Position numbers and translations under genes: made by a program | In this document: one piece after another, positions 3,556 to 28,854 of the stretch | How positions within the stretch are numbered: position 1 is the first letter of the stretch | How the letters are laid out: each line of letters opens with the position of its first letter | Source of the DNA: Isoetes taiwanensis | Taxonomy: Eukaryota; Streptophyta; Lycopodiopsida; Isoetales; Isoetaceae | Reading direction: 5' to 3' | Length of the DNA: 64,000 nucleotides | Assembly (NCBI GenBank): GCA_021234155.1 | Contig: JAJEKV010000533.1 | Location: 91,700 to 155,699 of the forward strand | Notes under the pieces: generated by a model | What the model saw: the letters and a program-made list of their open reading frames with translations, nothing else | What the model was told of the DNA's origin: nothing | Databases searched by the model: none

Positions 3556-3839
3556 CCTCGGATTGCTAGCCTCTACATGGCTAGCAAGGATTTTGGATTG
3601 AATTGGATGCTAGAGAAGCACATTTTTCAAAAAACATGCAAGAAAGGGATGCAAACTGAAAAATTCACTAGAGGACAAAAAATCCAAGAAAATAGGCACT
3701 CGAGCATTTTCCAGCCCTTAGACTTTCTCGTGCTCAAGCTTTGCCTTGAAGCCATGCTAAAAAAGGACTCGTGGGCCGAATTCCAAAAGGTATCCAAAAT
3801 ACCTGTATTTGTGGAACACTTAAAAGGATCTATTTTGAA

Positions 3840-7688: not shown

Positions 7689-9206
7689 GGCACCAACATG
7701 CCAAGGTGAAACCTAACATGCCACCTAGGCTCAAACATGCCAAGGTGGCTCCAACATGCCACCTAGGCTCCAACATGACAAAATGGCTCAAACATGCCAC
7801 CTAGGCTCCAACGTGCTCAAACATGCCACCACAGGGCTCCAACATGCCACCTATGCTCCAACTTGCCAAGGTGGCTCAAATATGCCACGTGGGCTCCAAA
7901 CATGCCACCTAGGCTCCAACATTCCTAGGTGGCTCCAAACATGCCACATAGGCTCAAACATGCCATGGGCTCACTTAGGCTCCAACATGCCAAGGTGGCT
8001 CCAACATGCCACCTGGGCTCAAAACATGCCAAGGTGGCTCAAACATGCCACCTAGGCTCCCAACATGCCACCTAGGCTCAAACATGCAGTGGCTCAAACA
8101 TGCCAAGGTGGCTCAAACATGCCACCTAGGCTCCAACATGCCACCTAGGCTCAAACATGCCAAGGTGGCTCAAACATGCTGCGTGGGCTCCACTATGCCA
8201 CCTAGCCTTCAACATGCCAAGGTGGCTCACAACATGCCACCTAGGCTTAAATATGCCAAGTTGGCTCAAACATGCCACCTAGGCTCCAACATGCCACCGT
8301 GGCTCCTAACCCCGCCACCCTAGGCTCAAACATGCCCGTGGGCTCCAACATGCCCGCGTGCCAAGGTGGCTCCAACATGCCACCTAGGCTCCAACATGCT
8401 CAAACATGCCCACGGGCTCTAACATGCCACCTATGCTCCAACTTGCCAAGGTGGCTCAAATATGCCACGTGGGCTCCAACATGCCAAGGTGGCTCAAGCA
8501 TGCCACAGGGCTCCAACATGCCACCTAGGCTCTAACATGGCAAGGTGGCTCAAACATGCCACGTGGTCTCCAACATGCCACCTAGGCTCAAACATGCCAA
8601 GGTGGCTCCAACATGCCAAGGTGGCTCAAACATGCCACCTAGGCTCCAACGTCTCAAACATGCCAAGGTGGCTCAAACATGCCACCTAGGCTCAAACATG
8701 CCAAGGTGGTTCCCACATGCCAAGGTGGCTCCAACATGCCACCTAGGCTCAAACATGCCAAGGTGGCTCAAACATGCCACCTAGGCTGCAACATGACAAA
8801 ATGGCTCAAACATGCCACCTAGGCTCCAACGTGCTCAAACATGCCATGCTTGAGGCTCCAACATACCACCTATGCTCCAACTTGCCAAGGTGGCTCAAAT
8901 ATGCCACGTGGGCTCCAACATGCCACCTAGGCTCCAACATTCCTAGGTGGCTCAAACATGCCATCTAGGCTCCAACATGCCACCCAGGCTCAAACATGCC
9001 AAGTGGCTCAAACATGCCAAGGTGGGCTCAAACATGCCACCTAGGCTCCAACATGCCAAGGTGGCTCAAACATGCCACGTGGACTCCATAATGCCACGTG
9101 GGCTCCAACATGCCAAGGTGGCTCCAACATGCCATGCAGGGCTCCAACATGCCAAGGTGGCTCAGGCATGCCACCTAGTCTCAAGCATGCCACCTAGGCA
9201 CCCCAA
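7689..9206. repeat. 19-bp satellite, array 1
   Basis: About 1.5 kb of tandem 19-bp units of two main types: CTCAAACATGCCAAGGTGG and CTCCAACATGCCACCTAGG. A third variant ends CCACGTGGG. Occasional units are shortened or expanded. The consensus lacks stop codons in the read frames, so long false reading frames rich in Met-Pro-Arg-Trp-Leu and Cys-His-Leu-Gly-Ser phrases appear throughout. Array 2 is at 11,915-12,850 and remnants lie at 13,112-13,150 and 56,715-57,215. Confidence 0.95.
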
Positions 9207-11914: not shown

Positions 11915-12850
11915 ATGCCCACATGGCATGTTTAAGCCGCCACGGCATTTTTGAGCCACCTTGGCATGTTGGAGCATAGGTGGCATGTTGGAGCCACCTT
12001 GGCATGTTTGAGCCACCTTGGCATGTCGAGCCTAGGTGGCATGTTCGTGCCTAGGTGGCATTACCTTGGCATGTTGGAGCCTAGGTGGCATCACATGCCA
12101 AGGTGGCTCAAACATGCCACATGGGCTGCAACATGCCACCCAGGCTCAATAACATGCCAATGTGGCTCAAACATGCCACCTAGGCTCAAACATGTCAAGG
12201 TGGCTCAAACATGCCATCGAGGCCCCAACATGCCAAGGTGGCTCAAACATGCCACGTGGGCTCCAACATGCCACCTAGGCTCCAACATGCCACCTAGGCC
12301 CCAACATGCCAAGGTGGCTCAAACATGCCAAGGTGGCTCCAACATGCCACGTGGGCTCCAACATGCCAAGGTGGCTAAAACATGCCACGTTGGCTCCAAC
12401 ATGCCAAGGTGGCTCAAACATGCCACGTGGGCTCCAACATGCCAAGGTGGCTCTAACATGCCACCTAGGCTCGAACATGCCAAGGTGGCTCAAATATGCT
12501 GCCACGGGCTCACCTAGGCTCCAACATGTCAAGCTGGTTCGACCCACGCGGGCTCCAGCGTGCCATCTAGGCTCCAACATGCCAAGGTGGCTCAAACATG
12601 CCACCTAGGCTCAAAATGCCAAGGTGGTTCCAACATGCCATCTAGTGGCTCAGCAAGCATGCCACCTAGGCTCAAGCACGCCACCTAGGCACTCCACGCA
12701 TGGCATGTTTGAGCACCCGGTGGCATGTTGGAGCCTAGGTGGCATGTTTCAACCACCTTAGCATGTTGGAGCCCACGTGGCAGGTTTGAGCCACCTTGGC
12801 ATGTTGGAGCCTAGGTGGCATGTTTGAGCCCGCGTGACATGGGCTAGTTT
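11915..12850. repeat. 19-bp satellite, array 2, with orientation switches
   Basis: Same 19-bp family as array 1. From about 11,915 to 12,095 units run in the reverse orientation (CCACCTTGGCATGTTTGAG), from about 12,096 to 12,700 in the array 1 orientation, and from about 12,700 to 12,840 reversed again. The array is interrupted by a MITE-like element at 12,860-13,112 and a few degenerate units follow to about 13,150. All open frames across it are satellite artefacts. Confidence 0.92.
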
Positions 12851-15790: not shown

Positions 15791-18700
15791 TTAATTAAAT
15801 ACGACTTTTGTATTATTTGCAGGAGTGTTAGAATCCTTTAATATTGACAAAGGTTTAGATGGAGGTTTAGCTACAAGATAGGTATCCCTTAACAGCTCAT
15901 CATCTCCCCATCTGATATTCCCTAAGTTTTCTTTATTTATAGTATCAACATCTTCCTCACTGTCAGAAATACCCCCTGGGATGAACTCAAACATATTGTT
16001 TATGGAGTTATCAAACAAACATTTCTTAGAACTATTTTGAAAGGGGACTTGCCTGGAAAGTTGAGCATCTTCCTCCACGTCTTGAGAATTGGAGATGATC
16101 TCGGGACTCAGGCTTTGAGGAGCTTCCTTGTTGATTTGAGAAGTCTGTCTGTCAGGTGTATCCAAAACTATATCCTTCTCTGTCATAATTTCTGTAGCTT
16201 GATCTAGAGCAGCCTGATCTTGGTCTTGTACTATAAGACTTTGTTCTGAGCTTGTGCACAATATACCTTCTTGTAGAGTAGCCATTTCCTTCTCAATATC
16301 AGTAGAAATGGTTTGGCAGCCATAATTCACAGAAGACAGATTTATTTCCAAATCAATGAGGGGTTCAAGCTGGATTAAAGTGTTTGAGGGAGAGGGTTGA
16401 GACAAAAGGTCTGCAGGTGTATTGGATGAGGGATGAACATGAAGATCAATCAACTGCTCATAATTTTCAGAATTCAACAATTAATTAGAATCATGGTTAG
16501 TATTAAGATCTGCAAGTATCTGGAAATGGTTGTAGCAGAGGACCTTGTTTTCCATTTCAGTTTGCTTTGATTTATCTATCTCCAAAACGTTCTGGTTAAT
16601 CCTTGTGTCCATGTCTCTATCTGAAGCTGAGGTTGGAATTATTGAATTCTCTGTCTTTGATGCAGAATTATCACTCTGGGAGGTTGAATTCTTCTTGTCT
16701 CTGATAACCAAGGTGGTCATATTTTTGAAGTTTGAGGTATGGCTTTGTCTAATTAATGAATCTCCCTTACTGCCTTGATTGAGATTCAAAGAATTTGACA
16801 GTCTAGAATTATTTAGGTTTTTGGCATCCTGAATAATTCTGTCTAGTGTGGAATGCAGATCCTCTGTTGATCTTGCATCCTGATCCATAGGAGCTTTGCC
16901 TTTATGATTGAAATCTATTTCTGAATAACTTTAATTCCAAAGGCATTTTTATTTGCATTTACTCCTGTTAAAGAACTTCTGTTTGATGTCGAGTCAGAAA
17001 TATGAAAGCCCTGAGCATTCTTTTGTTTATCCTTTTCAATTCTGTTCTTGTGGATTCTCCTTTGAGATCCATTCACTCTTTTCCAAGCGAAAGCATTGGT
17101 ATTGCTTGGATCTTCCAGTGTAGTTGGCCCTTGAAGAACTTGTGAACTGATATTTTTATGTGCCATATTTTCTGCTGTATTTTTTATCTTATTTGCCTCA
17201 TTTGATTCCTTTGAGGGAATTGTACTCACTGTGACATCTGCTTGCTTGATGGGAGTTGTCTTACAATTTTCATACCAAAAGTGCCTGTAATCACATGTCT
17301 GGCAATGAGGAGGCAGACCTGACCATCTTAGTGATAGGATTGATTTCTGTCCAAAAGCATCAGAGAAGGGAATGGAAGTGGGAACAGGTTTGGTAAGACC
17401 AATTTGAATGAAAGCTCGGGGAGGTCTCTCAGGGGAATATTCTGTAGAAATATATGTGCCAATGGAGTTGAATAGAATTCTGAAACAATCTTCATTCCAA
17501 TAAATTGGATTGAGCCCATGTAAAGTGGTTGATGCAATGCACAAGGACTCAAATGAAGATGTATCTAGCCTAGGATGCCATTTAAGAAAGCATATTTGAA
17601 AACTTTCAAAAGCCAGATGACCACGGTTTAGTAAGAAGTTTGTTGTTCTGGAGTTATCACATTCAATCATAATAAATGGATAGTTTAGCCAGTACGGGTT
17701 TATTTTTAATGGTGGTGTACAAAAATGCGAAATTTCAGCACGTCTTCGACACCTTACTTTTTTTGTGCAAGCTTGTTTGACGGGCTCAACGGGCATAATG
17801 AAGTCTGGCGACGACCATTATGACACTCCAGCGATTGGCATTTTGAGACTTAAAGCACGATCGAAGCACCAAGAATCGCAGATCATTAAGATCGGTGTAC
17901 TTCCAAAATTCGTCAGTGATCAACCTGGTCTGGTGAAATGAGCATTATGACGTTCAAACGATGAGCATTTTGAAATTCGAAGCAGGATTGAAGCACCAAA
18001 AAATCACAGAATGACGGCATAGCCGCACTTCCGAAAATCGTTAGTGATAAACGCAAATCCGAGGGCCATCATTTTTTGATGGGTGATGAAAATCTCTGAC
18101 GTGCTGTTGAAGTTCAACTTGAAGGGCTATCAGCACTTTATCAGCACCTTATGTCGCGACGTGCTAAATTGTACACCACTATTAAAAATAGACCCGTACA
18201 TGGCTTTGATGAGAATGCCTTTCTGAAGGTTTTGGCAGAAGGTCCAAAGTTTTTCAAGATTGATTCCACATTTATTAACCTTGACTAGAACAGCTGTGTC
18301 TATCAGAGTTGACATCTTAGCATGAACAGAAGGGAGATTTAAAGAAATACCATGGTACAAAGCTTGTTTGTTCCCTTCATCAGCTCGGGCCTCCAGTAAA
18401 GCAGCATCCAAGGCATTGTCACTATAGACATCTCTGACAGGTTTCGAAACTCCATATGGCATGTGAATTTGAGTAGAAGGATGCAGAAATGGGAGTCAAC
18501 CATAAAGATCAGAATCCTTTGACAGATTATCCCAAACAGGAACCTTCTGAGTTCTAGGATGCATGATCTGATTATCAGAGAGAAGGTTAGAGAAATCTCC
18601 AAAAATCAGACAATTTTTTGGGTTTTCTTGAAAAAGTCTTAACTGGTGAAGCAAAATCGGCCGATTTCAGAGTCTCCTAGTTGAGCAAAATCGTGGAGAA

Positions 18701-19856: not shown

Positions 19857-22567
19857 CCCCCTCGAAGATTCGCTTAAATTTCACCTAAGAGTCTCTTATT
19901 CTGGCGATGCTAAACATCGATGACTTTCAAGGAATAGAATCTTAGACCATAAGAATTAGATGGCGGACATCTTTAAGATCAAGACTCTTAAGTCTAAATC
20001 TAGGCCAGTAATTATGGCACGGCCAAGTAATTAGCAACACCAAAGGAACAAGAGTCAAGTTCGACATCAACCTTAAGCGGAGCAAAGTAGAGCATCGGCA
20101 CCAAATCAGGTACCTTGGCAAGTATGACCTCATAATAGGCATGGAATATTAAAGCCGGCTAAGGCAATAATTGATTATCATAAGCAAGAGATGTTTATCC
20201 CGGCACCAAAGGGCAAGTACCTTATAATTAAAGTAAGGAAGTAATTTTGTTAAGTCTGCCCTAGGATCTTAGACGATAAGAATTATACATTGTTAAGTTT
20301 GCCCTAGGTTACCTGTGTAAGCTCAAACCTTCTCAAATGATGTCATTTCAAATGGGCCATGCTGCCATTTGAGGTGGCCTTGTGACGAGGTTGAGTGGGC
20401 TCGTGATTGTGTAAATGGATTGTAGATGGTATTATTATAAAAAGCTAGATAAATGAACAATTTGCAGATGATCATTGCCAAACCATGACTGCGTAAGGTT
20501 TTATTTCAGTGGTGGGGATATTGCAAATCTCTTATTATGAAGGCCATCCAGATGTCCTTACATAATGGAAATTGCATAGCCTCCATTTAATTTAACATGG
20601 CCATTTTTCATTTGGCCTTTGTAGACCATTTTCTATACATCAGTGCATGAAAATAATGCATCACGATATTTATATTTTTAACGCATTGGTAAATGGAATT
20701 TGTGCTACTTGACCCCTATTCTAGGTATAGTATTATTTCTAGACCAACGCCAATTGCCTGTGCCAACTGAATAGCTTGCTTTGAGAATAATTGAGAAAAT
20801 CAATAACATCATCATCATGATGGAAAGTCCGTATCCAACTTATTGTACCTCTTAAGCTGCTTATCAAAGGTTAAAGGCATATTCAGCAACACAAAGTTCC
20901 AAAAATGACCATTGATCACGATATTATGCCAGAACTGTGCTTAGTCTTGAACTCTACATATACCTTTTAGCATTGAAATTATCGGGTGAGTAATCAGTAA
21001 GGATATGAACATCTGTTGTTGTACTATATCATCTAAGATTGCGTGCTTCGTATACAATCCCAATCAATAGATCTTTCACTAGCAGCATGTCAAATTTCAT
21101 CCACCAATTTGACTCTTTCTTTTAAACTTGTCAGTACCTATTAAGAACATAGTAGAAAACGAGCTTTTCAATTTATCTAGTTAATCAAGAACAAAGATAA
21201 TATTCATACTCGTACTGTCCAATAGATCAAGTGGACTAATGTGCATCATGAACAAAGGGAAAGGGATCCTTTCCATTCAAGACTTTTCCTTTAAGAGAAG
21301 TGTCTCAAAGGACAGTTGATGTTTGATTTGGTATGCCGTATGCATATAGCATAGTCTTCTACTCTGTGGTTTGGTCATGATTCTCTACTCTGTGTGCCAT
21401 GATTCATGAGAGAATAAACAATTATTCTGGGTTTTTATTAGGGCACACAAAGTTAAAGAAAAACGAATATTCCCAGGGGCCAACCAATGATGGGGAATAT
21501 TAGGGGTGGCCACATGCAATCTTTAGGGCCCTCCCCTCCATATATGAATCTGATATGAGGGGATACGAGAGAGGGGAAGATCTGCAGGAACAGCTGCGGA
21601 AGAGAAGAAAACAGATGATCAGACTAAAAGTTTGGGTGCCTCCCCTATCCGATTGGAACATTGAAAGTTGGCCTCCAACATGAACCGGAGGTCTCCACCT
21701 CCATTTTTGGACGAAACTCCTTCCATTGAAACCGGAAAACTGACATGTGGCCACCCTTATTTTCCCCTAAAGAATCGGATGTTTCAAGTTTCCAACTGAA
21801 AAGTTGTATCCTCCATATTGAAAAATATATGAGAATCTTAGAACAAATTTCCATGCACTAACTGAATGGAAAAACCTCCCATCCCAAAGTTCTTCCAACA
21901 GTGGAGCCAACTGAGATTTATAGTGGAACCCAAAGATAAAAAACAAATGTTATTTTGTATTCTGTATATCATTTTGTGGGACCTTAGTGGATTAGAGAAA
22001 TATCTGGCACGCACGTGTCGAAACATAAAGCTCCATCCAGCAAGTGGATTATGTAGTATAAAGGGCAGCAGATCTCAACGTAGAATGCACATCTCAAAAT
22101 GGAAATGGAACCCGGCGTCTTCTTATTAAAGGAGGTTTGGCTATAGTGCCCGGGTCGCCGGAGTATGAAATCCGCACTGGGGCCTCAAATTTCCTTCCTA
22201 ATCTTACTAATCCACATGGAAATAATTCTTTCTAGTTGCTACTGCACTTTGGCGCAGAATTTTGCTCCTTTTTTTTGCATAGAATAGTGTATTCTGGGGC
22301 CTGGGGAATCTGGACCATGGCCTCGTCAACCATCGAATTGGTAGCCACAAAATTGGATCGCTTCTTATTTCTGAGGCAAACGAATAGTGCCATGCATATT
22401 TTCTAAGATAAGTTCTGGCGGTTCTTCTGTAGACTGTGATCTGTGACCCTTTTTCGTGGCACAGCCATAGCTATAGCTTCGCATTTTATCCCGTCTAGAC
22501 TAGACCAGGCTATAAATGAGGCTAGCAAATAGCCGCCTTCATTCACGATTGAATAGATCCTTGATGG
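19857..22567. other. No recognisable gene (right part of copy 2)
   Basis: Matches 4,176-6,880. No family is recognised in any frame. A TATAAAT sequence near 22,511 lies about 450 bp upstream of the Replitron-like frame. The same sequence in copy 1 has unrelated DNA downstream, so a promoter role is not supported. Confidence 0.55.
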
Positions 22568-22957
22568 GATCCTTTTTCCTATTATAGCTTAGCTCAAATC
22601 CTAGCTATAGAGATGTAGAACTTCAAGCAGAAGCGTCTTCTTGACTGAGGCGTACATTCATCTAAGATCAAGAACTTTTTTACCAGGAGAAGGAAAGATT
22701 TGAAAATCGAGGGGGAAGTAGGTTTCCCAATGAATGAAACCGAGAGTTTTTTTGGTTTTTTGGGGTTGAAACTTTAAGGGCCGTTGGATTTGGTTTTTTG
22801 TGGACAATGGTCTGTTGTTGACGGCATGATTTGGGAGCAACGAAATTGCAAGTGACACTTTCCTCGTACAGAGGACGTTTGGCGTTGAGTAGGTGTTGGA
22901 TCTCAGGCCTGGCCAGATTCGGCTGGGTAGGCTCTTGCCTAGCAGGAATTCGGCCCG

Positions 22958-24619
22958 ATGGGCTACGCTTGGCATGGATTGAGCGATTTTGTTGGAACCA
23001 GGTTCTACTTGAAGATGCATGGATGCAAGGCCATAGTTCTTGTCTGTTTTCTGCGGAATGGCATGCCGAGCAACCAAGGGTCTAGCGAAGGTGACAGAGG
23101 TATATTTCAGTCTGTGTCAATGCTGAAAAAACTTGCTAGAGGTGTTAGGTCTGGGCAGGGCATGCATGAGTGTGTGGATGAGGAGGGTCGACCTCCTGAG
23201 AGCAGCAGCGCTGGAGCTGCAAGGCCCAGGGGCAGCATGAATCGGCTGGCTCCCAATGATTTCCTGAGCCTTGAGTCACATCGGGTTTTCCATCGTAGTG
23301 CCTTTGTAGAGGTCCCTTCTGAGATGCTGCAGCTGCCACTAGAGAGAGCTCAGTGTAACCTGAGCATTCTGGCTAATGTCTGTGAGGGTTTTGTGCCAAC
23401 AAGGAAGAGAGGCAGGCCACGAAAGAATGTTGGAGTCGTAATTCATAAACAGAATGAAAGAGATGATCTTAAGAAGAGCAGACAGTTGCAAAAGGAGGAG
23501 AGCAAGAAGGTGAAACAGATGGAGAAAGAGAGGAGACAGAGGGAGAAGATGGAGGAACAAAAGAAGGTGAAGAGGTAGAAAGAGGAGAGGAAATGCATAC
23601 AAAAGAAAGAGAAGGAGATGAAGAAGAATTCAGAGAAGGATGGGAAAAGCAATGTGCTCGATGTCAGCGTGACTGTGACAGTAAGCGGGTCTGACATACT
23701 TGAAGAACACTATTTGAGAGCTTGCAAATTTTTAGATTCGGATTGTTTGGCTGGCATGGTGGCAGTGGAGCGTGGCTCCGAGGTTGATCATCTCCACTTG
23801 CAATGTGTGTTTCGAGTTCCTTCAACCACGCCTGCAGTTGTGAATGTCCGATTGAGGCAAGCTCTTGATTGGACGAACCACCATCCACCTGGTGATGTCA
23901 TTCTGTGCAAGGCCTTGAAGGATACTCGTTTGCATTGCTTCAAGGGGATGCTCGGATACTGTTTAAAAGATGCAGGTAAACTTCATTATAGAAATCATAT
24001 GAAATAGGTCTCCCCTGAGCAACTTCAGCGTGGCAAGATTCTGTACGCTTTGTACGGAGCTGGCGAGATCAAGCACTGTGTGGTGCTGGATAACAGGAAC
24101 TTGCTTGGTCGGGCCAGTCATTTTGTCATATATCATGGGAGATGGTAAAGGACTCCCAGCCTATGCTACACAATCGCTCGAATGCTGCGAACTAGAAAAT
24201 TCACCCTTTCTAGTGCCTGGGTTCTCCCTTGGAATTCCGCTCGAATCAGTTATCACAAAGTAGAGGCAGCTTGGAGGCTAACCTTGGATCCACATCATGC
24301 CTCCATCAAGGATATGCGCTGCGTGATTTATGGGCTGCCGCCAGGGAAGGAGCCAGTAGAGAAAGTGGGGAAAAGGCGCCATAGGTACTGAGACGATGCC
24401 TTGGCTTGTGCAGAATTAGATAGACTTGATGCCATGCTGGAGGAGGAAGCAAGCAGCGGTAATGAAGACAAGGATGCAGTAGACATTGTTGATTATCCAG
24501 GGGATGAAGAGTACCACGAGGAAACGCCTGCTTTCATGCCTCCTATACATGGCAGCCATCTGCCCTTTGAAGACTATATCCCTTTAAATATTATAGACCA
24601 CGGTTTTGACATTGGATAA
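22958..24619 (+). pseudogene. Replitron-like HUH endonuclease, one frame with four stops
   Basis: A single reading frame of about 554 codons runs from the ATG at 22,958 to the stop at 24,617-24,619 without frameshift, but has in-frame stops at 23,576 (TAG), 24,005 (TAG), 24,146 (TAA) and 24,389 (TGA). In order, it encodes an N-terminal low-complexity region, an AT-hook-like RKRGRPRKN (about 23,402-23,428), a long Lys/Glu-rich coiled-coil-like stretch, and a Rep-type fold with beta strand VSVTVTVSG. Next come an HUH motif His-Leu-His (23,789-23,797, followed by Leu-Gln) and a Tyr-Cys-Leu-Lys motif (Tyr at 23,957-23,959). These two are the metal-binding and nucleophile motifs of Y1 HUH endonucleases. 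Downstream phrases (VSPEQLQRGKILYALYGAGE, then RMLRTRKFTLSSAWVLPW) fit my recollection of the Replitron HUH and C-terminal domains. An acidic tail ends the frame. The stops make it non-functional as sequenced. Confidence 0.7.
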
Positions 24620-24669
24620 TACGAGTTCTTCAGCTGCCCTTATGTTGTTATGTTTCATGTAACTGATTG

Positions 24670-25116
24670 CTTGAATTTTGTGTTGCAGGCTCCCATGTTG
24701 AAGGCCCAGCCAGTGAAGGTAACATAGATGCCTCTCCTCCGCCTCCATTCTCTACGTTTATTCCCTTAGATGCAGAATCCGAGGAGAGGGACTGTGTTGA
24801 AGACTGTGCTGCTGCAATCGATGGTGCTTACTTCGATGTTGAATGGATGAAGACACAAACTTGGAGGATGGTGCATAGCCTATCTGTTAACTTGAGTAAT
24901 GCGATGGATATCCTGGAGGAAGCCTTGACTGCTATTGATGATCCCCATGGAGTTGTTCCAATGCGAGATAAAAGAGTCTTTAGGGCTGAAGTAAACCATG
25001 TACGAGCCATGCATGCGGCAGCTCCAGCAGCTAACTGCCGCTCATCCAAACACCATGCAAGCATAATGGCTTGTTCCAGTGGCTGGGTGTGCAGATCCTT
25101 TATTGTATGTATATAA
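24670..25116 (+). pseudogene. Possible downstream exon or tail of the Replitron-like unit
   Basis: An open stretch follows a TTGAATTTTGTGTTGCAG sequence that looks like a splice acceptor (exon start about 24,688). It is in a different frame from 22,958-24,619. It encodes an acidic, Pro-rich start (about 24,700-24,790) and then a helical, Met/Leu/Glu-rich stretch with VEWMKTQTWRMVHSLSVNLS. No domain is recognised and no good donor is seen upstream, so its link to the HUH frame is inferred from proximity and matching composition only. Confidence 0.35.
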
Positions 25117-25299
25117 ACTTGTAGTTTTCATGTTTGTCTTCCATTTGGACGTTGCTGTTTTGGCTCTAAATGCGAATTGTCATTGGCATCTGTAATACTT
25201 TATGCTCACGTTTCTGTTTCTGTGTTGTGCACAAACTTGTGGTATATATTCAATGTTCATATTGCTGTTTTGATCACAAGTTTCTGTTCTTTTGGTTGT

Positions 25300-25475
25300 A
25301 ATCTGGCACTAATGCCAGTTGTAATATGGCGCTAATGCCACTTGTGCCTAGCTAATGCCACATGTACAAACCACATTGTTTATGAATTGGCAATGATCAT
25401 TTATGAATTGGCAATGATCCACATTGTTTATGAATTAGCAATGATCATTTATGAATTGGCAATGATCATTAGCAT
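25300..25475. repeat. Hairpin-forming and 22-bp tandem repeats downstream of the HUH frame
   Basis: TGGCACTAATGCCA (stem TGGCA/TGCCA, loop CTAA) is followed by TGGCGCTAATGCCA and GCTAATGCCA. Then come about five copies of ATTTATGAATTGGCAATGATC up to about 25,470. A poly-T run follows at about 25,490. The location after a HUH-type coding region makes a terminal or subterminal element structure conceivable, but no end is proven. Confidence 0.6.
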
Positions 25476-26115
25476 AGAAGGCTGGGATTTTTTTTTTTAA
25501 TTTGCAAAGGAACCGATTAACATGGAGGGACCGATAAAATGGACTAGAGTGATAGAATTGAAGAAGGGTTTTAAAGATTTTCTGGATTTGGGCGCTAAAA
25601 CAGTGCCAAAAAGGATTTTTTAGTTTGAAAATGGCCGTAATGGAACAAAGCATGGAGGTTATGGCAATTATGGCACTTCACAAAGCTTTGAGAAATGTGC
25701 GCATCAATTCCGAATGGACATATTCGATTTTTGGACAATCAAGCCGAGGTCAGGAGTATATAGATCTCTCTTCTTTTTTTTATTTTTTTTTAAAGAATAT
25801 AGATCTTTCTTCATTTTTTGTTTCTTTCCAAATCTGACCAATCCATGGCGCCAAATTTTGCAAAAGATTTAAAAGGTAGAATAGGATAATAGGATGCAAG
25901 GCTAGAGACTGAGACGACGAACATCACCATAAATGCATCTCGCTTTAAAATTTTTTAGCACGTGTCAACCCTTATCTACTCGGCACAAAAAAAAAATAGC
26001 ATCACAGAATTAATAGAATCAAACAAAATTTTATGTGCATTAATACGTTGTGACAAGATAAAGACAGGGGGCGTGCAATAAGGTTCAAAAATACAAATAC
26101 TTAGAACTCCCAACT

Positions 26116-26299
26116 AGGAACATATAGAATTAGAACTTAGAACATATAGAATTAGAACTTTTGTTAAATTCCAATTCAATCCACTCAAGAGCTCCTTCTA
26201 ATCCACTAGGAACATATAGAATTAGAACTTAGAACATATAGAATTAGAACTTTTGTTAAATTCCAATTCAATCCACTCAAGAGCTCCTTCTAATCCACT
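26116..26299. repeat. Two-copy 92-bp tandem duplication
   Basis: 26,116-26,207 is repeated essentially perfectly at 26,208-26,299. Each unit itself contains two copies of GAACATATAGAATTAGAACT. It lies just downstream of the ferritin-like stop codon (26,339-26,341) and would fall in that gene's 3' flank or 3' UTR. Confidence 0.92.
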
Positions 26300-26338
26300 A
26301 TAGCCTCCTAGAGTTAAATTCTAATCTACTCTGGACTC

Positions 26339-28854
26339 CTATACTACAGATAACACCCTCAGAAGCTCCTTGTCCCAATTCCAAACTCCTACACAAAAGT
26401 AGCACAAATTATCGAAATAACCACCACAATAATAACTGCGTAACAGAAGGAAATGAACCCACCATGTCCAGTACCAACAAGACGAAGTTGAGCTACATAC
26501 TCTCCATGTTGTTTGAGTAATCTCACCTAAGAAAAAAACAAAACGGAAAACCACAAGAGTAAATGCCCCAAATACGCAATTCAAATCCAACTTACACAAA
26601 TCTAAATTGAGCCTCCCAAGAAACATTTGCACCCTCCAAAATCATGGCATCCAAGTTCCTACTCAACTCTAATTCTAGTGACCCACAAAGAAACAGATAA
26701 AACACTTCTAACATTCTAAAGCTCCTAAATTGACAAATTTTAAAGCTCTTGGCACGCTAATTACATGTGGTTGTAAAAAATGTTGAGATAAATAGAGAGT
26801 CATATCATTGTCCCCAGCTTCCTCGGCAACCTACACATGATCAATTAACTACTTCATTACTTACTATCTTTACGAACCCAACTCAAGTTGCAATATAAAC
26901 TTTTGAGATCGCATACGCTAACCTTTGTTAAAGCCAAGTATCTCTCCAATTGCAGTTTCTCCATAGCCAGAGTCAATTCCATGGCTAGAAAATATAACAT
27001 GTAATATTAAAAAAACCAAAATTAAATAAATAGCTTTGACGCAACACATACCATACAGGGCATCCCCTTTCTGCTCATGATTATATTCACTCATAGGCTC
27101 ATGAATCCTCTTCAAATCAATGCTTCCACCTCTTTTTGCCTATGAGGATCACAAAAAATAACTTAAATTCTAAAAAACATCATTACATAAAAACAAATAA
27201 AGCTGTTGAGGATGATCTTGCACCTCTTGGTGTGGATCGATGATGTGGCATGCCCTTTGGGCTGAATGGTCATCTCTCCAAGAGACACATCTCCATGATC
27301 AGACACACCTCTTCATAATCCATCCTATAAATGTATAAGCCAAGGCTGGGGCTATTCCAGTCACTCAGATCAATATATGCTTCCGCTATTCATATTTGTG
27401 AGATGGTATCAGAGCCCAGGTCGTAGCCTGGGCAAATTCGTGCTTAGAAGGATGGAGGACGCCAGTACTGAGGCTGGCAATGAGGAGGACGAGTCTCCTG
27501 ATCTGTAAGGAAAGTGGGCCTATTCTATTTACGCCATTCACATTCCAATCCATCTAAAGAAGACCCGGATGCCTGCATGCATTCCGGATATACGGTGCTG
27601 CTGGTGAGATGCATCTTGTGCTTGTGGTAGTATTTAGATGCTGTGAAGAATTTGCAGCAGAAGAGATGAAGCCCAAGCAGGTACATTCAAGATGCATGCT
27701 AGAGACTCCAGTTTGTTGCTCAAGACTCCATCCCTGTAGAGACGCCTGGTCCAAAACCAATTGGTCCAGAAGAACCCACATAGTGGTTTGTTGCAGGTAT
27801 TAGCAGAAGACTGCACTGCAATTTGAGGGGGAGTTGTCTGAAGATCTTGTTCTGGTTCGGATGCCAGATCAAGGGGGAGTGTTGAGAAAATGATCTCACA
27901 TCCTCACCGTACAAGTGGAGGGTTGATCAAGAGTCATGGCGATTCACAGTGGCGTTTGGGCTGGATCGATCCACCCAAACAGTCACACCTCTTCATATAT
28001 TCCTTATATATTTGTGCTACGGGTTGGGGCCTGTCAACCCAGTTTTTCTCTCATCATCAATATGTATTGATGATGAGAGAGATGATGAGAGAAAACTGGG
28101 TTGGACAGGCCCCAACCCGTAGCACAAATATATAAGGAATATATGAAGAGGTGTGACTGTTTGGGTGGATCGATCCAGCCCAAACGTCACTGTAACTGCT
28201 TGGTGACTCTTGATCAGCGTCCTCCACTTGTATGGTGAGGATGTGAGATCATTTTCTCAACAAAAGCTACCATGGAATAGACCTTACAGTGTAATTAGAA
28301 AGAGATAACGCATCAGCCCTCTCCTCCAGACTACGAGTTTTATAAAATCTTAACAAAAATCAGTTAAAACATATGTCAATTCCCTAAGTAAAAATACAGA
28401 CCTCAAATGACTGATTCAAAATTCAAAGTATTAACATACTTCACCAATCCTGGCAACGCCACACAGTCTCGATCAAAGTAATGAACAAGGGACTGAAAGG
28501 TATAAGCCATATTATAGGCCACACTGTGCAGAAAACAGGGCAAATGAGCAAGTAGAACAGAGTATCAGACAAAAACCAAGAAAAAGAACAAAAAAATGGC
28601 AGATTATGCGAAAGAAAATCAAGATTTAGGTTAGGCCGATCTTACTTGATAGCATTGGTAAGCTCCTTTTCACATTTCTGAGTGAAGAAATGGCGACTAA
28701 GGCACTTATCAACACGGTGCTCTGCAGGGCAGAGTTCGTCGAGGCCGGCCTTGAGTGCCAAAGCGGCTGCATCGTAGATTGTTTCCTCCCCTTCGAGGAC
28801 CGAGGGGGCAATTTTCCTCTGAGCTTCCGACCTCTGCTGATCCGGCGTCGCCAT
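26339..28854 (-). CDS. FER: Ferritin-like protein, 8 exons
   Basis: Iron-storage ferritin subunit family, assembled from eight exons on the minus strand: 28,854-28,646; 28,523-28,440; 28,348-28,288; 27,139-27,052; 26,984-26,923; 26,830-26,765; 26,526-26,463; 26,388-26,339. All introns are GT..AG and the phases close to a 227-codon frame ending in TAG. Family landmarks are YFDRDCVALPGLVKFYK (about residues 85-101), SLEERADA, AKRGGSIDL (119-127), EQKGDALYAMELTLAMEKL (140-158), EYVAQLRLVGTGHGVW (199-214) and a C-terminal helix WDKELL. Against the human H-chain ferroxidase centre, Glu61, Glu62 and Glu107 are kept (E106, E107, E156), but Glu27 is Ala72, Tyr34 is Phe79, His65 is Asp110 and Gln141 is His190. 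No clear plastid transit peptide is seen before the ferritin core; the N-terminal ~50 residues are unusual. Eight exons match plant ferritin genes as I know them. A bidirectional-looking TATATA lies near 29,003. Expression is untested, but nothing in the frame is broken. Confidence 0.85.
27204..28262 (+). mobile_element. TRIM-like LTR element with palindromic 3' end, in ferritin intron 3
   Basis: Flanked by a 5-bp duplication AAAGC (27,199-27,203 and 28,263-28,267). It starts TGTTGAGG (27,204). A primer-binding site TGGTATCAGAGC, complementary to initiator tRNA-Met as in copia elements, follows at about 27,404. A polypurine tract AAGGGGGAG (27,871-27,879) precedes TGTTGAGA (27,880), where the 3' LTR should begin. 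The 3' LTR is cut short near 28,062 and continues as its own reverse complement to CTCAACA at 28,262. The internal part (~450 bp) has no recognised gag or pol. The two LTR types share CACACCTCTTCATA and TATA-like phrases but are clearly diverged. The element lies within a spliced intron and leaves the gene's exons intact. Confidence 0.75.

Follow-up and report, generated by a model that had tools for sequence, protein, structure and literature searches.

A decayed Replitron in Isoetes taiwanensis and a conserved second reading frame in its relatives that may be expressed by splicing

We analysed a stretch of 64,000 nt from contig JAJEKV010000533.1 of Isoetes taiwanensis (hereafter the window, within which all positions are numbered) and identified in it, close to certainly, an inactive, decayed Replitron. 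Replitrons are a recently described class of eukaryotic transposons, known from plants and algae, that move by means of a single-strand DNA-cutting enzyme, an HUH (Rep-type) endonuclease. The best overall explanation, which we hold with high confidence, is a decayed Replitron whose relatives carry, 3′ of the enzyme ORF, a second coding region (ORF2), together with a putative splice over the HUH region. We propose more tentatively, at somewhat short of even chances, that lycophyte Replitrons are two-protein elements, in which splicing would remove nearly the whole HUH region and join a leader to an ORF2 with a helical hairpin, partnering or regulating the transposase and kept across subfamilies. 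The features are listed in Table 1; L-numbers denote the Replitron loci compared from the same genome and C-numbers its contigs.

Table 1. Features of the Replitron copy, numbered within the window
Feature	Position	Strand	Basis
Replitron element, ~2.8 kb, AGTAGGTTTCCC to GACCGAT	22717..25535	+	edges common to copies; termini approximate
ORF1, transposase reading frame, four internal stops, final stop 24617	23063..24619	+	homology, codon-position changes
Proposed mini-exon, ORF1 codons 1-12 and one further base; donor-like end weakened here (GTATAT)	23063..23099	+	inferred
Proposed alternative intron over most of ORF1, ending TTGCAG	23100..24688	+	inferred
HUH endonuclease domain	23666..23995	+	PF21859 match
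His-Leu-His; Tyr codon; Lys codon	23789..23797; 23957..23959; 23966..23968	+	in HUH domain
ORF2; the proposed junction splits its first codon, and the window copy has a frameshift close to the end	24688..25113	+	conservation, dN/dS

The preliminary description had read the plus-strand frame at 22958-24619 as a Replitron-type HUH endonuclease, with an HUH motif followed 53 residues later by Tyr-x-x-Lys, and had proposed a profile search of the conceptual frame as a check. Both the motifs and the assignment are borne out. The 142-residue piece at 23579-24004, which holds His-Leu-His and, 53 residues after the second His, Tyr-x-x-Lys (23957-23968), matches the Pfam model PF21859, Replitron_HUH (E 8.1e-16, 59 bits against a cut-off of 28.5; profile positions 1-110 of 128, residues 30-139 of the piece), and no other Rep family rises above cut-off. 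Indeed, Replitron_HUH is the sole Pfam model above cut-off both in the pieces of the window frame and in three related open frames of the same genome, which match it at E 1.9e-20, 2.8e-18 and 7.5e-18. The frame was searched in pieces, and its other pieces gave no Pfam model above cut-off; an AT-hook-like motif, also claimed previously, does have a Pfam match, but a weak one of 14.2 bits, under the cut-off of 17.4. An Rfam scan over the window gave no match. The Isoetes element resembles Replitrons in its one-Tyr HUH domain, its many dispersed copies, the lack of a helicase match and its lycophyte host, and section 25 of PMC10741241 already reports Replitrons from lycophytes.

No helicase model exceeds the Pfam cut-off in the window pieces or the three relatives, and the same is true of viral Rep and superfamily 3 helicase models. 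Helitrons, which are also eukaryotic transposons with an HUH Rep nuclease, have two catalytic Tyr plus a fused helicase; the Isoetes element carries a single Tyr motif, and no helicase model reaches cut-off in it, so that it lacks the hallmarks of that group. Reps of CRESS-DNA viruses are recognised by a match to viral Rep models together with a superfamily 3 helicase. Although a single-Tyr HUH is common to CRESS Reps, an endogenous CRESS-DNA virus or plasmid Rep gene (geminivirus-like) in place of a transposon has next to no probability and is rejected on the profile results, with Replitron_HUH as the sole Pfam model above cut-off and the HUH piece unmatched in PHROGs, and also in view of hundreds of candidate copies with common edges. 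The founding Replitron paper, published by Craig in PNAS in 2023 (doi 10.1073/pnas.2301424120), is said to draw a weak link between Replitrons and CRESS Reps.

The frame at 22958-24619 comprises 554 codons and ends in a TAA at 24617. Its four internal stops (23576, 24005, 24146 and 24389) and its freedom from frameshifts had been correctly recognised, the five pieces between the stops keeping their order and frame in alignment with related ORFs from this genome. The frame lies beyond chance because the Pfam match (E 8.1e-16) is accompanied by differences that fall mainly at third codon positions (72/37/173 at positions 1/2/3 over 515 codons, against L013). On the other hand, the protein would start only at Met 23063, judged by homology from the conserved MPSSQGS of related copies; the element, too, is wider than the earlier frame (about 22717 to 25535), and ORF2, at 24688-25113, had been missed. 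Six of eight ORF1 pairs have dN/dS values of 0.09-0.27, the other two being saturated. Hardly any variation is seen in the alignment of relatives (A3) at the first His or at the Leu, Tyr and Lys, and one copy, L029, has Gln in place of the second His. Replitrons have an adjacent C-terminal domain, and C-terminal blocks are kept among the ORF1 copies of this genome; no reference model of that domain turned up in Pfam, and no model matched the region. Structure prediction, suggested earlier as a check of the HUH region, brought no help: the model of the HUH and C-terminal region is poor (mean pLDDT 45), and Foldseek returned no structural match for it at E<=0.001. As for a PDB sequence search, the best E was 0.088 for L014 ORF1 (coiled-coil stretch) and 0.38 for the HUH piece of the window.

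The extent of the element was taken from the alignment of copies, and all 19 copies compared align to it. This approach, also proposed in the preliminary description, yields common edges at about 22717 and 25535, but the exact termini are not proven. The left edge (AGTAGGTTTCCC) is the starting point in 13 of the 14 copies having a left-end match, while on the right L016 and L018 extend to GACCGAT at 25535 and L017 to 25534. Replitrons have short direct terminal repeats of 5-11 bp and target-site duplications of 2-8 bp, according to section 25 of PMC10741241. Among the eight copies with both ends, a search for target-site duplications found flank matches of 11 bases in L014 and of 7 in L022, L013 and L018; of 56 mismatched pairs used as a control, one reaches 9, the maximum, and two reach 7, so that only L014 exceeds all of them. 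The window copy has no clear flank match of this type.

Relatives are numerous in the genome (1,658,258,908 bp in 1110 contigs), and the match counts are lower bounds, with 150 matches scored each out of longer candidate lists. The HUH piece of the window has at least 150 matches (150 scored among 2949 candidates), as has the PF21859 model (150 scored among 2165 candidates, all of the scored ones above cut-off), which matched in none of 14 control genomes. Intact relatives had been predicted, and copies with long open frames are indeed found, for instance one of 523 residues in L014. The dispersal of the copies agrees with copy-and-paste insertion but does not demonstrate it.

Some copies are clustered. 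Head-to-tail tandem copies, 94-96% alike, occur at L014 (C919), L029 (C930) and L030 (C1101), and at the L014 junction the ORF2 region runs into the 5′ part of the following copy through a short GTTA common to both. The genome search with the HUH piece also showed several more pairs a few kb apart, and L031 (C1078) holds two inverted copies, 96.7% alike over 1678 bases, with about 1.3 kb between them. At L030 the sequence immediately left of the first copy looks like the right end of the copies themselves (reverse complement 752-802 and 3569-3618), which hints at insertion beside a right-end-like sequence or at a once-longer array. L036 and L038 represent a further subfamily, in which ORF1 is long and open and is followed by another frame; in L036 this second frame has 155 residues and no clear kinship to ORF2 (E 0.31).

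The history of the window copy can be followed in two loci. L064 (C1026) carries the same insertion; its colinearity with the window reaches from 21486 to 26520, and mismatches amount to 2.48% over 1209 bases of left flank and 0.41% over 983 bases of right flank; three of the four stop triplets of the window ORF1 are stops there too. L015 (C479) has its left flank in common with the window across the insertion edge (3.25% mismatch), and its ORF1 is still open for 452 residues. Since both loci share the insertion with its flank, the insertion predates both splits; since the L015 frame is open, the stops of the window arose after the split from L015. Hence, of the earlier view that the copy is young or was recently under selection, a fairly late decay stands as a possibility suggested by these alignments, but youth is not established, because L064 and L015 share the insertion. 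L015 itself breaks off at about window position 24473, and an inverted piece of the ORF2 region lies further on.

Twenty copies were aligned to the window, and in 16 of them the alignment includes sequence over 24690-25113, downstream of the enzyme ORF. In the more distant window-like copies, changes in ORF2 favour third codon positions, less strongly than in ORF1 (32/16/39 in L013), and the closest copies have no such bias (18/11/12 in L016, 15/14/10 in L018). A genome search with the ORF2 protein gave at least 151 matches, with 150 scored out of 758 candidates. A profile built from the window-like, L028, L029 and L030 types recovers L042 (E 1.5e-6), L033 (2e-6), L043 (4.4e-5) and L037 (9e-5), and the reverse profile, from the distant types, recovers L029 at E 9.7e-5. 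Thus ORF2 recurs in divergent subfamilies whose HUH proteins are 42-47% identical. Twelve loci (L032-L043) had been picked by their HUH match alone, and eight of them (L032, L033, L035, L037, L040, L041, L042 and L043) match ORF2 at E<1e-3 with either of two profiles; the second of these was built from L033, L035, L037 and L042, of which L033, L037 and L042 are also recovered by the first. No match at this threshold was obtained in the other four (L034, L036, L038 and L039), and the match of L043 drops to E 0.014 under a joint profile.

The substitution pattern shows that ORF2 is under purifying selection. Ten of twelve pairs gave dN/dS values of 0.14, 0.20, 0.25, 0.63, 0.20, 0.20, 0.39, 0.19, 0.22 and 0.27, eight of them within 0.14-0.27, whereas the wrong-frame control, one frame of one pair, gave 1.28 against 0.14 in the true frame. 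The first 52 codons are less constrained (dN/dS 0.13-0.92). Beyond codon 52, 9 of 10 pairs have most of their changes at third positions; ahead of it, 8 of 10 do. We consider it very likely that ORF2 encodes a real protein. AlphaFold predicts two helices (residues 51-83 and 92-122) with block pLDDT values of 88-98 and a low-confidence N-terminal third, with a mean pLDDT of 75 and a pTM of 0.54 overall; the protein is probably one of about 130 residues, in which an acidic N-terminus, likely disordered, precedes an alpha-helical hairpin. Pfam searches with 17 ORF2 members gave nothing better than E 0.045, a PDB search with the ORF2 profile reached only E 0.32, and Foldseek found no solved structure for the model at E<=0.001.

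The way in which ORF2 might be expressed is suggested by its borders. In 13 of 15 aligned sequences it is directly preceded by TTGCAG, which ends in a splice-acceptor-like AG. Window-like copies have no start codon of their own for ORF2, whose first codon is split after one base; in L013, for instance, the frame lacks a Met at its start and meets a stop 7 codons upstream. A donor-like AG/GTATGT lies at ORF1 codon 12-15, likewise after the first base of a codon. Because both sites split a codon after base one, ORF2 is in phase with a mini-exon of 12-15 codons. The donor-like GT is present in 27 of 29 copies scored, the window included (33 sequences were submitted; L018, L046, L047 and L059 were left out); by comparison, eight ORF1s use GGT for 59 of their 208 Gly codons. 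All 29 scored copies have A as the third base of the codon before this GT, though the residue is Arg, Lys, Thr or Gly. The scored copies are related, so these counts are not independent, and L054, like L064, represents the very insertion found in the window.

Outside the window-like copies the arrangement varies. Three L029-type copies and L043 have a donor-like site upstream of ORF1, after a short Met-started frame and in the same phase; the three L029-type copies also have another such site, a stronger one (7.0), which lies still further upstream and has no open in-phase Met frame. L033 has one donor-like site before ORF1, without an in-phase Met. Within 420 bases before ORF1, no donor-like site over 3 was found in L042, L035 and L036 (L030 lay outside this search), which makes the splice route less likely. 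L032, L035, L037, L040 and L042 have a Met of their own in the ORF2 frame, and the acceptor phase, judged by eye, differs in L042 and L035, as would be expected where the phase need not be preserved. Altogether, we give slightly better than even chances to a route in which the mini-exon would be joined to ORF2 and the HUH region removed as an intron.

Alternatively, no mini-exon splice would be needed if translation of ORF2 began at an internal Met (WMK) or resumed by reinitiation once ORF1 has ended. The portion after the WMK Met is the better conserved one and the one predicted to fold, and short intron-like stretches adjoin the ORF1 stop in several copies (by eye). However, the codons before this Met have a third-position excess in 8 of 10 pairs and dN/dS values of 0.13-0.31 in four pairs, and we regard this alternative as unlikely. 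ORF2 could also be no separate protein at all, but the C-terminal exon of the HUH protein, joined from within or from the end of ORF1. Strong in-phase donor-like sites do occur just after the Tyr (L013, L014) and at the next GK motif (L033, L042), but only 9 of 34 sequences have a GT at the former position, and only 6 of 28 at the latter. On these counts, donors within the HUH region are ruled out as the general partner of the ORF2 acceptor, and the exon reading as a whole appears improbable.

Alternative splicing from a mini-exon would be the simplest reading of ORF2 expression. By analogy with the family, the ORF1 protein of working relatives would nick one strand at the element ends through its single Tyr, assisted by a metal site at His-x-His, and would remain attached to the DNA end and bring about copy-and-paste insertion. 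The element would form one transcription unit, whose unspliced message would give the transposase and whose spliced message, with a short leader joined to ORF2 and the HUH region leaving as an intron, would give ORF2; we can only guess that the latter serves as a small helical partner or regulator of the transposase. Plant transposons of the En/Spm type also make two spliced products from one element, namely a transposase and a second protein, as proposed here for the Isoetes Replitrons; enzyme and mechanism are unrelated, and the resemblance is one of layout only.

Taken by itself, the relic is unremarkable, one more copy from a transposon class that is known and already reported from lycophytes. 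What sets the Isoetes copies apart from Replitrons as represented by PF21859 and by section 25 of PMC10741241 is ORF2 with its proposed splicing. We found no mention of a second ORF for Replitrons in the literature covered, to which the founding description does not belong, and a literature search for HUH transposons in connection with alternative splicing, or with lycophytes, brought up nothing further. ORF2 may be the new part, a novelty which falls away if the founding description already has such a region. If land-plant Replitrons do have a conserved second protein made by splicing, this class, so far little studied, would gain a partner or regulator open to direct testing, and there would be a handle for spotting other members.

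Elsewhere in the window, 7715-9199 and 12093-12830 hold long, degenerate arrays whose repeat unit has 19 bases (ACATGCCAAGGTGGCTCAA and variants). A plus-strand frame at 30411-31055 matches PPR repeats, and two minus-strand frames match DUF4283, just under cut-off (16915-17817), and the Transferase family PF02458 (49523-50572).
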